Source of the DNA: Alkalicaulis satelles
Lineage (GTDB): Bacteria; Pseudomonadota; Alphaproteobacteria; Caulobacterales; Maricaulaceae
NCBI RefSeq assembly: GCF_008630495.1
Contig: NZ_VWOJ01000001.1
Coordinates: forward strand, 124,001-188,000
DNA length: 64,000 bases
Direction: 5' to 3'
Part shown: in pieces, positions 30,227 through 36,974 of the stretch
How positions within the stretch are numbered: position 1 is the stretch's first letter
Layout: each line of letters begins with the position of its first letter
Translations under genes and position numbers: made by a program
The notes under the pieces: generated by a model
Told to the model about the DNA's origin: nothing
The model's input: the letters and a program-made list of their open reading frames with translations, nothing else
Database searches by the model: none

Positions 30227-31771
30227 TCACCCCCTGTCCGTCCACACAATCCGGTAGAGATCAAAGCGCCGGTCGCGCAGGTTTCTGACCGTGCCGGAGC
30301 GGCGCGCTTCGGCCAGCGAATCCATGTGCAGATCGGCGACCGCGATGGTCTCCACATTCTCGCTGGCCTCGGCGGCCAGGCCGTCGCGGGCGAAGGGAAA
30401 ATCGCACGGGGTGATGATGGCGGCCTGGGCGTAGTTCACGTCCATATTGGCCACACCCGGCAGATTGCCTACATTGCCGGCAGTTACCAGATAGAGCTGG
30501 TTCTCGATGGCGCGCGCCTGGGCGCAATAGCGCACCCGCAAATGGCCCGGACGGTCGTCGGTGGCATAGGGCACGAAGATGATTTTCGCGCCTTCGTCGG
30601 CCAGGCGCCGGGCGAGCTCGGGAAACTCGCTGTCATAACAGATCAGCACGCCAATCGGCCCGCAATCGGTGGGGATGGCGGCCACGGTGTCGCCGCCCTT
30701 GATATTCCACCAGAAGCGCTCATTGGGCGTGGGGTGTATCTTTTCCTGGGTGTGGATCGAGCCGTCGCGCAAGAACACATAGGCGACGTTCTGGATGGTC
30801 CCGTTCTCCAGTTTGGTGGGGTGGGAGCCGCCGATGATGTTGATATTGTAGCGCACCGCCAGCGCGCTCATGAACTCCACAAACCGCTTGGTGTGGCGGG
30901 TCAGCGCCGCAATGCTCTCCTCGGGCGTCAGCTTGCGCTTTTCCAGCGACAGCAAGGGCACGGTGAACATTTCCGGGAAGACGCAAAAATCGGCGTCGTA
31001 TTCGGCGCAGGCGTCCACGAAGAACTCCACCGTGCGCTCGAACTCGGCCACGGTCTCCACCTCGCGGGTTTTCAGCTGCACCGCCGCCACGCGCACCGTG
31101 TTGGGCGAGGGCAGGCGGCCCGGCCCCTGGCCCTCGGCCCAGGCTGGATTGCGCCAGACCATCAGGGCGGCGTGACCGCCCGCCTCGCCATCCTCGGGGT
31201 AATAATTGCGCAACACGCCCGCGGGCTCATAGCCCATGCGCATCTGGAAATTCAGCACGCCGTCACGGATCTCGCGCGCCTCGATGGCGGCCAGATAGGC
31301 CTCGGGCGTTGGATAGATGCGCTTCTTGCGGCGGTAGCCCGACAGCCGGCCGCCGAACACCACGCCCTTCAGGCTCCAGTCCTCGCACAACGCCTGGCGC
31401 GCCACATAGAGCCGCTCGCCGATGCGCAGGCGCCGGCGGGCCGGGTCCACCGCCACTTCCATGCCATACACCCACTCCCCGTCCGGGTCGTGGCGCGCGG
31501 CGAAGCCGTTGCCGGTGATGCCCGCCCAGTCATGGGGCGCAAACGCGGCCGCCTCGTCGATGATGAAGCTGGCGCACCAGCCCACCACCTCGTCCTCGAA
31601 CTCCACGATGAACTGGCCTTCGGGGAAGGCGGAGATCTGGCCGCGGATCATGGAGGGCGGGTCGGGCTGCATGGACGGATAGGCGCGCGCCTGCAGCGCC
31701 AGAATGGCGTCCACATCCTCCAGCGTGGCGTTGCGCAGCTTCAGCTTGGCGGTGCGTTGGGTGCGGGTCAT
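30227..31771 (-). CDS. GNAT N-acetyltransferase / carbon-nitrogen hydrolase fusion protein
   Basis: A 514-residue two-domain protein. The N-terminal GNAT-like domain (about 10-205) includes YGMEVAVDPARRRLRIGERLY, which resembles the acetyl-CoA-binding region (R/Q-x-x-G-x-G/A) but with RRRLRIG, a weakened loop. The C-terminal nitrilase domain (about 225-505) has the full catalytic triad: Glu267 in FPEMF, Lys344 in EKIHPTPNE, Cys378 in LICYDSEFPE. The two-domain layout is known in bacteria, but a substrate is not established. A minus-strand TATAAT at 31808-31803 lies 32 bases before the ATG, with GGAGA as ribosome site. Confidence 0.85.
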   Translation of the reverse strand: MTRTQRTAKLKLRNATLEDVDAILALQARAYPSMQPDPPSMIRGQISAFPEGQFIVEFEDEVVGWCASFIIDEAAAFAPHDWAGITGNGFAARHDPDGEWVYGMEVAVDPARRRLRIGERLYVARQALCEDWSLKGVVFGGRLSGYRRKKRIYPTPEAYLAAIEAREIRDGVLNFQMRMGYEPAGVLRNYYPEDGEAGGHAALMVWRNPAWAEGQGPGRLPSPNTVRVAAVQLKTREVETVAEFERTVEFFVDACAEYDADFCVFPEMFTVPLLSLEKRKLTPEESIAALTRHTKRFVEFMSALAVRYNINIIGGSHPTKLENGTIQNVAYVFLRDGSIHTQEKIHPTPNERFWWNIKGGDTVAAIPTDCGPIGVLICYDSEFPELARRLADEGAKIIFVPYATDDRPGHLRVRYCAQARAIENQLYLVTAGNVGNLPGVANMDVNYAQAAIITPCDFPFARDGLAAEASENVETIAVADLHMDSLAEARRSGTVRNLRDRRFDLYRIVWTDRG

Positions 31772-33664: not shown

Positions 33665-34180
33665 CTAGAAAATCCCCAGGAATTTCTTGCGTGTCTTGCG
33701 CGGTTCGCTGTCCGGGGCGATGTCGGCGGGGCCGGGTTCGGCGCTGGCGTCGGCGGAGGACAGGTCCGCAGCGCCGTCCGGGCCGGGGCCTTCGGCTTCC
33801 ATGGCGTCAGACGGCCCGTCCGCCTGGGACGGCGAGGGCGGTGGCGGGGCGAGGTCCGCGCTGCGCGCGGGCGCAGGCTCGATGCGCACCGGCGCGCACA
33901 TGTCCGCGTCGCACAGGGGCGCGCTCATGGCGTGGGCGGCGCGGCGTGAAGGCGAGCTGACCGGTCCGGCATAGCCGCCAAGGCCCAGCACATCGCGCAC
34001 GGAGTCACGGAAAGCGCCGGCGCGCGCGTCGATCTTCAGCGCGCGCGCTTCAGCCTCCTGCAGGCGGGACAGATCGGCCGGGCGCGGGGCGCGCACGGCG
34101 GCGGGCGCGACGGCCTGGCGTGCGCGCGTCATGGCGGCGCGCGCTTCCTCGAGATCCAGCGGCTTGGGCGTATCGGTCAT
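33665..34180 (-). CDS. Proline/acid-rich protein of unknown function next to the Ntn-hydrolase gene
   Basis: A 171-residue protein with a helical N-terminus (LDLEEARAAMTRARQAV; SRLQEAEARALKIDARAGAF), a central part rich in Pro, Ala, Ser and Asp that is probably disordered (about 90-155), and a basic hydrophobic C-terminus (RKTRKKFLGIF). There is no recognisable domain and no signal peptide. The ATG at 34180 follows AAGGAGG at good distance; the frame upstream to 34228 overlaps the previous gene and is rejected. It begins 26 bases after the proteasome-like gene on the same strand and is most likely co-transcribed with it. An adaptor or substrate role is only a guess from position. Confidence 0.6.
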   Translation of the reverse strand: MTDTPKPLDLEEARAAMTRARQAVAPAAVRAPRPADLSRLQEAEARALKIDARAGAFRDSVRDVLGLGGYAGPVSSPSRRAAHAMSAPLCDADMCAPVRIEPAPARSADLAPPPPSPSQADGPSDAMEAEGPGPDGAADLSSADASAEPGPADIAPDSEPRKTRKKFLGIF

Positions 34181-34206
34181 GTCAGCCTCCTTGGCGGGGC
34201 GCGTCA

Positions 34207-35445
34207 TCAGGACTTGAGAGCATACCATTCCAGCCCGCCGGTGCGCGAGATCATGGCCACATCCACGTCTCCGCCCACCCCGGTCTGGGTCATGTGCAGG
34301 GCGCTTTTGAGAATATTGAGCTCGACCAGAGACTTGGCGGTTTCGGCCAGCTGCCGCTTGCCCGAGGCGGCCACCACCTGGACGAAGGGATTGATGAACT
34401 CCTCCTGGGAGATTTCCTGGACCGCCCGGGCGAATTCCGTCGTCAGGCTGGGCAGGGGGCCCTCGCGCAGGGCGTCCATGGCCGGTTCGGCCTGTTCATC
34501 GGGCACGCCGGCCTGTTTGAGCGCGGCCTCGGCGGCGGACTCATTGGTGATCCAGTTCAGCGACAGCATCACGTCGAACATCAGGGGATGGATGCCGCGC
34601 AGGAAGGCGTGGGTCATCTCCGCCTGCGCAAACGTGCGCAGATAGGCGTTGGGGCCGTCCTCCACGCCCACGCGCATGGTCTCGTCATGGGCGCGCTTCA
34701 TCACTCCGTCCACCAGGATCGAGGCGTAGTAATGGGCGTAGACCGGAAACACGTCGCCCTCGCCAAAACCGGCGAAGACCAGGCCCGCATAAGGCTCCAG
34801 AAAGGCCGGGCGGGTGGCGATCATATAGGCGAAGTCAAACAGCTTGTCGCGCATCTCGGCCTGCATGCCGAACGCGCCCAGCGCCTCTTCGATCAGACCG
34901 TCGAGCATGGCCGCATAGCGCTCGTAGAAGCGCGTGCGGTCGAACTCGGCGAACACCTCAAGGGACTGGCGCTCGGCGCCCGCCTCGTCATGGATGAGAT
35001 GCTCGCGATAGAGATCGAGCGCGGCCTCGAAGGCGGCGGCGTCATTATCGTAGCCGCCGGCGGGGTAGCGCCGCATGGCCTTGGCGTGGCTGAGCACGGT
35101 CAGGAAGGCTGCGCGCATCAGGTGCTCGAACTCCTCCATCTCCTCGTCTTCCGGGAACAGGCGCCGGTTATGGTCGATGAAGGAGAAGAAGGCGCGCGCG
35201 CAATCGTCCACCGAGGCGTATTCGGCGTTGTCATGCTGCTTCACGAAGGCGTGGGCGATATGCGACCAGGAGCGGCCCAGCACGTCGCCGCGCGAATAGA
35301 CCATGACGGCCATGTTCGGCCCCAGGCGCAGGATTTTCTCCGCTTCCAGCGTCACCACCGGATCGGGGCCGCCGCCATAGGTGACCGCGCTGTCCGCCGC
35401 CAGCACGACCGCCTGGCGGTTCATGATCATCACTTCCGACGTCAT
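34207..35445 (-). CDS. Long proteasome-like Ntn-hydrolase with N-terminal threonine
   Basis: A 412-residue protein whose N-terminus, after Met removal, looks like a proteasome beta subunit: Thr1, then QAVVLAADSAVTYGG with the Asp exactly at position 17, and Lys36 (LEAEKILRL) close to the catalytic Lys33 of 20S/HslV subunits. LAADSAVT corresponds to the proteasomal A-A-D-x-R-x-T block. The first 60-70 residues therefore support an autocatalytic Thr hydrolase. The remaining 340 residues are mostly helical and match neither HslV (about 180 residues) nor Anbu (about 240). The start at 35445 follows GGGGGATGG and leaves no propeptide. It is divergent from the SOS-boxed polymerase gene and followed by an unknown partner gene. 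Family relatives are, to my knowledge, uncharacterised. Confidence 0.65.
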   Translation of the reverse strand: MTSEVMIMNRQAVVLAADSAVTYGGGPDPVVTLEAEKILRLGPNMAVMVYSRGDVLGRSWSHIAHAFVKQHDNAEYASVDDCARAFFSFIDHNRRLFPEDEEMEEFEHLMRAAFLTVLSHAKAMRRYPAGGYDNDAAAFEAALDLYREHLIHDEAGAERQSLEVFAEFDRTRFYERYAAMLDGLIEEALGAFGMQAEMRDKLFDFAYMIATRPAFLEPYAGLVFAGFGEGDVFPVYAHYYASILVDGVMKRAHDETMRVGVEDGPNAYLRTFAQAEMTHAFLRGIHPLMFDVMLSLNWITNESAAEAALKQAGVPDEQAEPAMDALREGPLPSLTTEFARAVQEISQEEFINPFVQVVAASGKRQLAETAKSLVELNILKSALHMTQTGVGGDVDVAMISRTGGLEWYALKS

Positions 35446-35664
35446 TGCGCGTCCATCCCCCCTTGTGAAACCGCACTGGCGGACCGGCGCCCTTGCGCCC
35501 CCTCGGCGCGCGGACATCCCGCCACAAGTCTTGACGAAACGTTAGCGCGCGCATGCCCCGGTGTTAAGTCCGCGCGATTGTTTCACCTGTGCGGCGCGGC
35601 AGGAATGCCACGCTTGAGGGCGCCGGCAGGGCGGCTTGTCCCCGGGGCGGTGCAGGGGCGGCGA

Positions 35665-35707
35665 TTGACTTTGCGCGCCGCCGACCCACAATGTTCCGCA
35701 TATGTTC
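35665..35707 (+). promoter_or_regulatory. SOS-box promoter of the Y-family polymerase operon
   Basis: TTGACT (35665-35670) precedes a weak -10 (ACAATG, 35688-35693, 17-base spacer). Directly downstream is a perfect LexA box GTTC-N7-GTTC (35693-35696 and 35704-35707, spacer CGCATAT). An in-frame ATG at 35691 falls inside this element, which argues that translation begins at 35730 instead. LexA bound here would cover the start of transcription. Confidence 0.75.
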
Positions 35708-35729
35708 CAAGCGCCCGGACGCAAACCTC

Positions 35730-36974
35730 ATGCGCAAGCCCGACGCCATTGAATGGCTCTATATCGACTTTGACGGCTTCTTCGCCGGGGTCGAGCAACA
35801 GGCCGACAGACGCCTGCGCGGGCGTCCGGTAGGCGTGGTCCCGTTCGAGGAGACCGAGCGCTCCATCTGCATCGCGGTGTCCAAGGAGGCCAAGGCCGCC
35901 GGGGTGAAGACCGGCACGCCGTGCACGCAGGCGCGCCAGTTGTGCCCGGACATCGCTTTCGTGCAGCAGAAGCCGGATCTCTATGTGCGCGCCCATCACG
36001 CCTTGCTGGAGGCCATCGAGCGCTGTGCGCCCATTGAAGGTGCATGCTCTATTGACGAGCTGGCCGCCCCGGTGGAGCCGTGCTGGCGCGGCGATCCGGC
36101 GGCGCTGGGCCGGGCGATCAAGCGCGAGATGGCCGCTGTGGCGCCGGTGATCACCGGCTCCATCGGGTTCGCGCCCAACGCCCATCTGGCCAAGATCATC
36201 TGCAAGTGGAACAAGCCTGACGGCATCACCATCCTGCACCCCGGGGACATGCCCGGGCGCCTGTTGCAGGAGCGGCTGGAGGATATTCCCGGCCTGGGCG
36301 CGCGCATGGTGGCGCGCCTGGAGCGCGCCGGGATCACCGACATGACCGCGCTGTGGAACAGCCAGCCCAAGCAGTTGCGCGCCATCTGGGGCTCGGTGGC
36401 CGGCGAGCGCTTCTGGTATGTGCTCCACGGCTATGACGTGCCTGGCCAGGCGTCCCGGCGCGCCATGTTCGGCCATGGCCGGGTGCTGCCGCCCAGCCAC
36501 CGCACGCTGGCCCAGGCGCAGGACTATTCCACCTTCCTGCTGATCAAGGCGGCCCGGCGCATGCGCGCGGAAGGCTATGCGGCCGGACGGCTCGATATCT
36601 GGCTGTCGCTGAAGGACCGCTCCTGGGGCGATGGTCTGCCCCTGCGCCCGGCGGCCCATGACGACCGCACCTGCCTCAAACGGCTCGACCAGCTCTGGCG
36701 CCAGGCCCATGACGTCCTGCCTGCGCGCAGCCGGCCGGTGCGCGTGGGCGTGTTCCTGTCCGATCTGTGGAAGGGCGAGCGCCAGCTGGACCTGTTCGCC
36801 CGCGAAGAGCGCGACCAGGCGCGCTGGGAGACCATCGCCGAGGCCATCGACCGGCTGAACCAGAAATATCACCGCACGGTGGTGTCAGTCGGCCCGCTGC
36901 GCCCGCCGCCCGGCCAGTATGCGGGCGGGAAGATCGCCTATACCCGCATCCCCGACTTCAGGGACTTCACATGA
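35730..36974 (+). CDS. Y-family (UmuC/DinB/ImpB-type) translesion DNA polymerase
   Basis: A 414-residue damage-tolerant polymerase. The palm residues are present: Asp13 in LYIDFDGFF and Asp109-Glu110 in ACSIDEL. The finger segment IAVSKEAKAAGVKTGTPCTQARQLCPD and the thumb helix-hairpin-helix LEDIPGLGARMVARLERAGI are clear. The sequence belongs to a divergent branch often labelled ImpB/MucB/SamB, not classic DinB: it has FDGFFAGVEQ instead of DMDxFFAxVE and lacks an RGV-x-x-A-S-Y finger. Lack of a C-terminal clamp motif I can name is another difference. A LexA box lies just upstream, so it is DNA-damage inducible. It overlaps the next ORF as ATGA. Confidence 0.85.
   Translation: MRKPDAIEWLYIDFDGFFAGVEQQADRRLRGRPVGVVPFEETERSICIAVSKEAKAAGVKTGTPCTQARQLCPDIAFVQQKPDLYVRAHHALLEAIERCAPIEGACSIDELAAPVEPCWRGDPAALGRAIKREMAAVAPVITGSIGFAPNAHLAKIICKWNKPDGITILHPGDMPGRLLQERLEDIPGLGARMVARLERAGITDMTALWNSQPKQLRAIWGSVAGERFWYVLHGYDVPGQASRRAMFGHGRVLPPSHRTLAQAQDYSTFLLIKAARRMRAEGYAAGRLDIWLSLKDRSWGDGLPLRPAAHDDRTCLKRLDQLWRQAHDVLPARSRPVRVGVFLSDLWKGERQLDLFAREERDQARWETIAEAIDRLNQKYHRTVVSVGPLRPPPGQYAGGKIAYTRIPDFRDFT

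Follow-up and report, generated by a model that had tools for sequence, protein, structure and literature searches.

Proteasome homologues described previously

In a 2021 survey, Fuchs, Alva and Lupas described 22 new groups of proteasome homologues (PMC8665760). According to the part of the survey used here, the group named Proteasome homolog with Multiple Insertions 4 (PMI-4) contains 501 nr90 sequences from many phyla and from phages; both long insertions are found in PMI-3 and in PMI-4, and PMI-3 comprises 28 sequences, none of them from phages (PMC8665760). No genomic context suggestive of function is reported for PMI-4 in that part of the survey (PMC8665760). Our literature searches on PMI-4, Ntn hydrolases and proteasome-like proteins in phages, prophages and defence gave no functional study of PMI-4 among the titles listed.

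The window analysed here is the whole stretch of 64,000 nucleotides from Alkalicaulis satelles (Maricaulaceae), with positions counted from its first letter. On its minus strand (34207–35445) it contains the gene of a 412 aa proteasome-fold Ntn hydrolase, which belongs to PHROG 5990 and is probably a member of PMI-4. The hydrolase has, to judge from the available part of the survey, the proteasome-like fold, the Thr1/Asp17/Lys layout, the long insertion after H1/H2 and the insertion between H3/H4 of PMI-4, and its family likewise occurs in phages and many phyla. Membership was assigned by match to the published description and not by the alignment of its authors. PMI-4 is favoured over PMI-3 because the distribution found here (wide, phages included) fits the former and not the latter. 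An uncharacterised branch of Ntn hydrolases had been proposed from the sequence alone; this holds with regard to function and not with regard to novelty, since the architecture, most likely that of PMI-4, was described in 2021 (PMC8665760) and the family is present in PHROG as 5990. Connectase resembles the hydrolase as a divergent proteasome homologue outside the protease barrels, but it is archaeal, carries its insertion at another site and has a known ligase activity, as described in the same source (PMC8665760).

Family assignment and database matches

The window hydrolase matches PHROG 5990 (function unknown) over residues 1–408 with an E value of 1.6e-47, and the family is matched by all 11 members of a diverse alignment. 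Within PHROG 5990, the Maricaulaceae proteins form a separate long branch without the C-terminal extension of the mobile forms. Most hydrolases of mobile elements (L050–L133) end in this conserved, KRKHYFxxxLNxxFF-like extension.

The Pfam and NCBIfam models of HslV, Anbu and the 20S subunits do not recognise the window hydrolase, which bears out the earlier claim that it is unlike these proteins by sequence. Concerning PF00227, the window hydrolase has no match at E values up to 10, and the matches in relatives are below the cut-off (1 of 22 at 0.17; 3 of 11, at best 0.15). The single PF00227 match of the organism's own genome is a different gene, located on contig C2, which is presumably HslV. 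The comparison of 22 family members with Pfam and NCBIfam gave best E values of 0.016 and 0.0091, both for models with unrelated names. The best hint among the profile matches is an archaeal proteasome beta model (E 0.13), and one relative has a Pfam match to sigma-70 region 1.1 below the cut-off of that model. PDB sequence searches with the hydrolase and its relatives gave no proteasome match. PADLOC-DB 2.0.0 gave no family for the hydrolase or for its partner, the product of the gene downstream; 11 relatives gave four single-member matches (best E 0.0081), none of them beyond chance level.

Predicted fold and insertions

An AlphaFold2 model of the hydrolase built from 39 sequences (mean pLDDT 89.7, pTM 0.85), together with structural alignment, predicts a proteasome/Anbu fold over the whole chain. 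The best PDB matches by Foldseek are 20S proteasome beta chains (E 1.5e-4), and among viral models Foldseek matched chiefly short proteins that resemble the proteasome (best E 2e-4). By VIA-align, the model aligns with yeast beta5 at Z 15.5 (3.6 A over 180 residues), with its residue 2 placed on residue 1 of the yeast chain, and with Anbu of Yersinia and of Pseudomonas (5nyw, 5lox) at Z 15.4, level with proteasome beta. The likeness to the 20S beta subunit and to Anbu consists in the predicted fold and the N-terminal Thr, whereas the hydrolase is about twice as long, contains large helical inserts and has no significant sequence match to either. Structure prediction and structural search, along with the conserved predicted catalytic residues, uphold the proposal of a proteasome-type N-terminal Thr hydrolase as far as the fold is concerned.

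The core strands are found at residues 4–52, 220–272 and 395–409 of the model, and the excess length consists of helices at 60–211 and 276–383, within the core. Based on DSSP, residues 60–211 (34813–35268, minus strand) form six helices between core strands 45–52 and 220–226 and contain the first insertion (H1/H2 region). The helices at 276–383 sit between strands 267–272 and 395–400; the long ones at residues 287–383 (34297–34587, minus strand), before the last core strands, make up the H3/H4 region with the second insertion, for which the H3/H4 borders are approximate. A large extra domain behind an Ntn core of about 70 residues had been suggested. This is not so: the core strands reach residue 409 with the inserts between them, and an appended C-terminal domain was rejected. 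The '340 further residues' are no such domain because the fold spans the whole chain and the excess is inserted within the core.

Reading frame and conserved residues

The hydrolase starts with MTSEVMIMNRQAVVLAADSAVT (412 codons, minus strand). A longer frame of 436 aa exists, but the homologues inspected start at the same Met/Val/Leu-Thr, and Thr directly follows the start codon even when this is GTG or TTG. Residue conservation was counted over 109 distinct hydrolase sequences (137 before duplicate removal), and Thr2, Asn9, Asp18, Ser19 and Lys37 are identical in all of them. Thr2 (codon 35440–35442, minus strand) is the predicted N-terminal nucleophile after Met removal, Asp18 (35392–35394, minus strand) corresponds to mature Asp17, and Lys37 (35335–35337, minus strand) to mature Lys36, the counterpart of proteasome Lys33. 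The sequence-only reading, which named no strand, had placed Thr1, Asp17 and Lys36 in the mature protein and raised the question of their invariance; all three are present in the translated minus-strand frame and none varies among the 109 sequences. The frame is not a chance one, because 13 of 14 sampled same-genus relatives carry the gene and the five residues are identical throughout. Among the ORFs of 28–42 kb of the window, inspection by eye found no HslU-, Mpa- or ARC-like gene.

Distribution across lineages and mobile elements

The gene is found in 22 of 41 genomes (the window's own and 40 relatives), and Oceanicaulis, Glycocaulis, Marinicauda and Woodsholea are among the named records that contain close homologues (14 loci). 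In the order, PHROG 5990 is matched in 81 of 299 genomes, distributed over family f5 (56), the window's family (21), f3 (3) and f4 (1). The hydrolase is present in 16 of 385 genomes of the class and in 8 of 299 of the phylum, own genome included. Relatives are encoded by 157 of 212 pattern-matched stretches from IMG/VR, of which 80 were kept. They are also found in 13 of 50,697 phage records (including Streptococcus, Providencia, Stenotrophomonas and Porphyromonas), in 10 of 72,556 plasmid records, with Enterococcus among the hosts, and in 9 of 5,426 E. coli genomes (one DNA query).

Based on a hydrolase tree of 62 sequences, the window lineage (12/12) and the f5 lineage (4/4) are each monophyletic with a support of 1.0. 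Both stand apart from the mobile-element sequences, yet they form no joint clade in the midpoint-rooted tree. The hydrolase of genome G020 groups with the mobile-element forms. The window copy looks like an old chromosomal version, because its lineage is monophyletic and apart from the mobile-element sequences.

The partner gene in the window and in related chromosomes

The gene downstream of the hydrolase, which the earlier reader missed, encodes a partner protein of 171 aa (33665–34180, minus strand) and begins 26 nt beyond the stop codon of the hydrolase, with a longer frame from 34228. A Shine-Dalgarno-like AAGGAGG (34186–34192, minus strand) is located 5 nt before its ATG, and the protein ends in KKFLGIF (33668–33688, minus strand), a tail which is not exclusive to partners. 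All 14 Maricaulaceae loci examined have a partner homologue directly 3' of the hydrolase, and in ten of these no other neighbour from the window is present in flanks of up to 6 kb. The partner occurs in 17 of 79 genomes of the window's family, all of them hydrolase-positive; the hydrolase-positive genomes G020 and G452 lack it. Family f5 has a small protein at the same place, with an N-terminal part that is different by eye, and in 25 of 27 complete cases among L145–L172 a basic and aromatic stretch precedes a terminal GIF or GLF. Maricaulaceae and f5 partners carry a common C-terminal tail on different N-terminal parts.

Two other genes of the window were noted by eye. A Y-family DNA polymerase-like gene (35589–36974, plus strand) is oriented divergently to the hydrolase gene and has the same place in L024; at 30227–31771 on the minus strand, a protein of 514 aa looks like a GNAT acetyltransferase with a fused nitrilase-like domain.

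Small downstream genes in viral, prophage and plasmid loci

Concerning mobile elements, we counted the usable hydrolase clusters (80% identity) from viral, prophage and plasmid loci. An ORF of 45–75 aa starting −35 to +40 nt from the hydrolase stop is present in 46 of the 53 clusters, where dinucleotide shuffles would lead one to expect 8.3. On the viral contigs a small ORF follows the hydrolase in 40 of 45 clusters, compared with 55 of 264 control ORFs (other ORFs of at least 200 aa in the same loci). The remaining seven of the 53 clusters lack a 45–75 aa ORF, and three of them have ORFs of 35–37 aa instead. At L122, L127 and L132, a 35–37 aa ORF of the MSLQQVV... type just downstream of the hydrolase replaces the usual partner.

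Differences at codon positions 1, 2 and 3 amount to 298, 225 and 483 in one group of small genes (766 codon pairs), and the excess at the third position that translated genes should have is seen in all five groups tested; the tested small genes are under purifying selection. The small gene is annotated in 3 of the 16 annotated records viewed. The small partners are very divergent and fast-evolving, with short aromatic motifs kept within groups, and among 55 of them no shared family emerged from PHROG or Pfam, each database yielding two single-member matches. An aromatic-x-Pro motif is found in 13 of 38 dereplicated partners, against 5.0 in shuffles (a fraction of 0.0005 of 2000 shuffles was as high); it is a lead at most, because the pattern was chosen after the sequences were seen.

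Genomic context

The hydrolase–partner pair is often found in cargo positions of mobile elements. One Streptococcus satellite phage has the hydrolase as its last gene and another carries it in the distal accessory part; in a Streptococcus prophage it stands at the end, after the endolysin. In a Providencia phage, as in an E. coli prophage, the hydrolase is flanked by antiterminator Q and holin, and in a Stenotrophomonas phage it is next to holin and lysozyme. Such phage positions usually carry defence or lysogenic-conversion cargo. In a Porphyromonas phage the hydrolase lies among structural genes, which does not fit the cargo pattern. Of the named PHROGs matched by 132 neighbouring proteins, those of repressors, regulators and Q-like antiterminators are the most frequent. 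Nothing mobile was seen near the hydrolase in Maricaulaceae, and a conflict role may for this reason not apply to the window copy.

A different neighbourhood is seen on plasmids of Hyphomicrobiales: annotated multiubiquitin and ThiF genes lie within about 5 kb of the hydrolase in five of seven records (H1, H4, H5, H7, H9), H8 has no match to genes of the multiubiquitin/ThiF type, and H10 has a partial hydrolase without them. On Rhizobium and Mesorhizobium plasmids (L215, L216, L219, L221, L141), multiubiquitin, ThiF and DUF6527 genes and, in four, a ClpP-like gene are found within about 5 kb of the hydrolase. The association amounts to at most two independent cases, because four plasmids share one arrangement. 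No ubiquitin-like genes are annotated beside the Ruegeria, Pantoea or Enterococcus copies. A ubiquitin link was set aside as the general function of the hydrolase on these grounds (five of seven plasmids, four with one arrangement, none by the other copies); a link between ubiquitin-like and proteasome-like proteins is possible in some Rhizobiales plasmids.

Fusion model and the C-terminal tail of the partner

One structural model was made of the L027 hydrolase fused to its partner by read-through. The partner helix at 462–489 has pLDDT values of 77 to 92 in ten-residue blocks; a lone helix can score well in such a model. Two-residue bridges are found at hydrolase 214–215 and at partner 460–461, within the conserved SPRPADLSRL, and are absent from the hydrolase-only model. 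We infer that these bridges may pair with each other, partner residue 460 lying in a block that averages pLDDT 47. The fusion model gives a hint that the partner may dock on the hydrolase. The partner tail is not ordered in it (last block pLDDT 46).

The strict tail pattern occurs once per genome in 15 of 41 genomes, and 14 of these matches lie behind the hydrolase by coordinates; the remaining one ends a protein of the hydrolase-less genome G017, which we take to be acyl-CoA-synthetase-like. In 299 genomes the tail pattern has 57 matches, 40 of them just downstream of a listed hydrolase by coordinate comparison. Among the other 17 are at least five real protein ends (L184, L187, L188, L189, L191), a fragment of a partner cut by a contig edge (L212), and short or non-gene frames. 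At the five loci, tails of the KFLGIF/KFLGLF type end unrelated proteins, presumably acyl-CoA-synthetase-like, hydrolase-like and lytic-transglycosylase-like, in related genomes without a listed hydrolase. Docking through KKFLGIF is weakened, because similar tails end proteins in such genomes and the tail has low confidence in the fusion model. The KKFLGIF-type tail may be a localisation tag or a general C-terminal tag.

Proposed mode of action and alternatives

Our best explanation, with a probability of about 0.5, is that the protein would be a Thr hydrolase acting with a cognate small protein, probably as a conflict or lysogeny module of mobile elements, and retained on the Maricaulaceae chromosome. 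Met removal would expose Thr1, which would attack an amide or ester bond with the help of Asp17 and Lys36. The helical inserts probably alter or prevent stacked-ring assembly and carry specificity, and the small protein encoded downstream would bind the hydrolase as an adaptor, inhibitor or dedicated substrate. On phages, satellites and plasmids the pair would travel as cargo that most likely serves conflict with other mobile elements or lysogenic conversion. In the Maricaulaceae lineage of the window it would be a conserved chromosomal pair, whose partner is on this best reading an enlarged form of the usual small one.

It is rather unlikely that the hydrolase is instead a general protease that needs no ATPase and acts on unfolded or peptide substrates, with a small gene that is merely co-transcribed and a tail that serves as a general localisation tag. 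According to the available part of the 2021 survey, some homologues may work without dedicated ATPases (PMC8665760), KKFLGIF-like tails are found on acyl-CoA-synthetase-like and other proteins, and two Caulobacterales lineages have the gene on the chromosome with what looks like vertical inheritance; however, the pairing with a small gene is found repeatedly in very divergent lineages, both mobile and chromosomal, and clearly more often than in the controls, and outside these two lineages the distribution is sporadic (16/385 in the class).

A specific ligase or processing peptidase of the Connectase kind is unlikely as well; the small protein would then not regulate the enzyme but be its dedicated substrate, with a short motif as the site of cleavage or joining. 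Connectase is a proteasome homologue that acts as a monomeric, specific protein ligase, but its signature insertion, as described in the part of the survey used here, lies between strands S3 and S4 (PMC8665760), and the inserts of the hydrolase are elsewhere. The fast evolution of the partners, with short aromatic motifs kept within groups, and the single tail on different N-terminal parts in Maricaulaceae and f5 would suit such an enzyme, although other proteins, in genomes that lack the hydrolase, carry that tail too. That the protein is a scaffold or binding protein with a proteasome fold but no catalytic activity is very improbable: the position of the proteasome oxyanion-hole Gly47 appears, placed by eye, to be Tyr or Phe in 105 of 109 sequences (residue 50: Tyr 93, Phe 12, Asn 2, His 2), but a non-Gly residue there can still give the backbone NH, and Thr2, Asp18, Ser19 and Lys37 are invariant in 109/109 very divergent sequences.

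Returning to the Thr hydrolase with its cognate small protein, a broader form can be put forward tentatively: a widespread, hitherto undescribed two-gene system of a proteasome-fold Thr hydrolase and a fast-evolving small protein that docks on it, which may serve conflict on prophages, satellites and plasmids (as a protease-based toxin–antitoxin or in superinfection exclusion), may work with a ubiquitin-like conjugation operon in some Rhizobiales, and may have been kept, as a pair, on the chromosomes of Maricaulaceae and of a sister family.

The branch itself was already named in 2021, probably as PMI-4, without function or informative context in the part of the survey used here (PMC8665760). 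What is new is the recurrent pairing of hydrolase and small gene, and the mobile contexts; relative to the PMI-4 description in that part of the survey, the partner gene and the cargo positions are added here. The survey, as far as that part goes, left proteasome homologues without a genomic clue to function, and the partner and the cargo positions make one branch testable. The usual small partner points to an overlooked two-gene system, often carried on prophages and phage satellites, and the pair would also tell us what use the proteasome fold has once its barrel is altered or blocked by large inserts.
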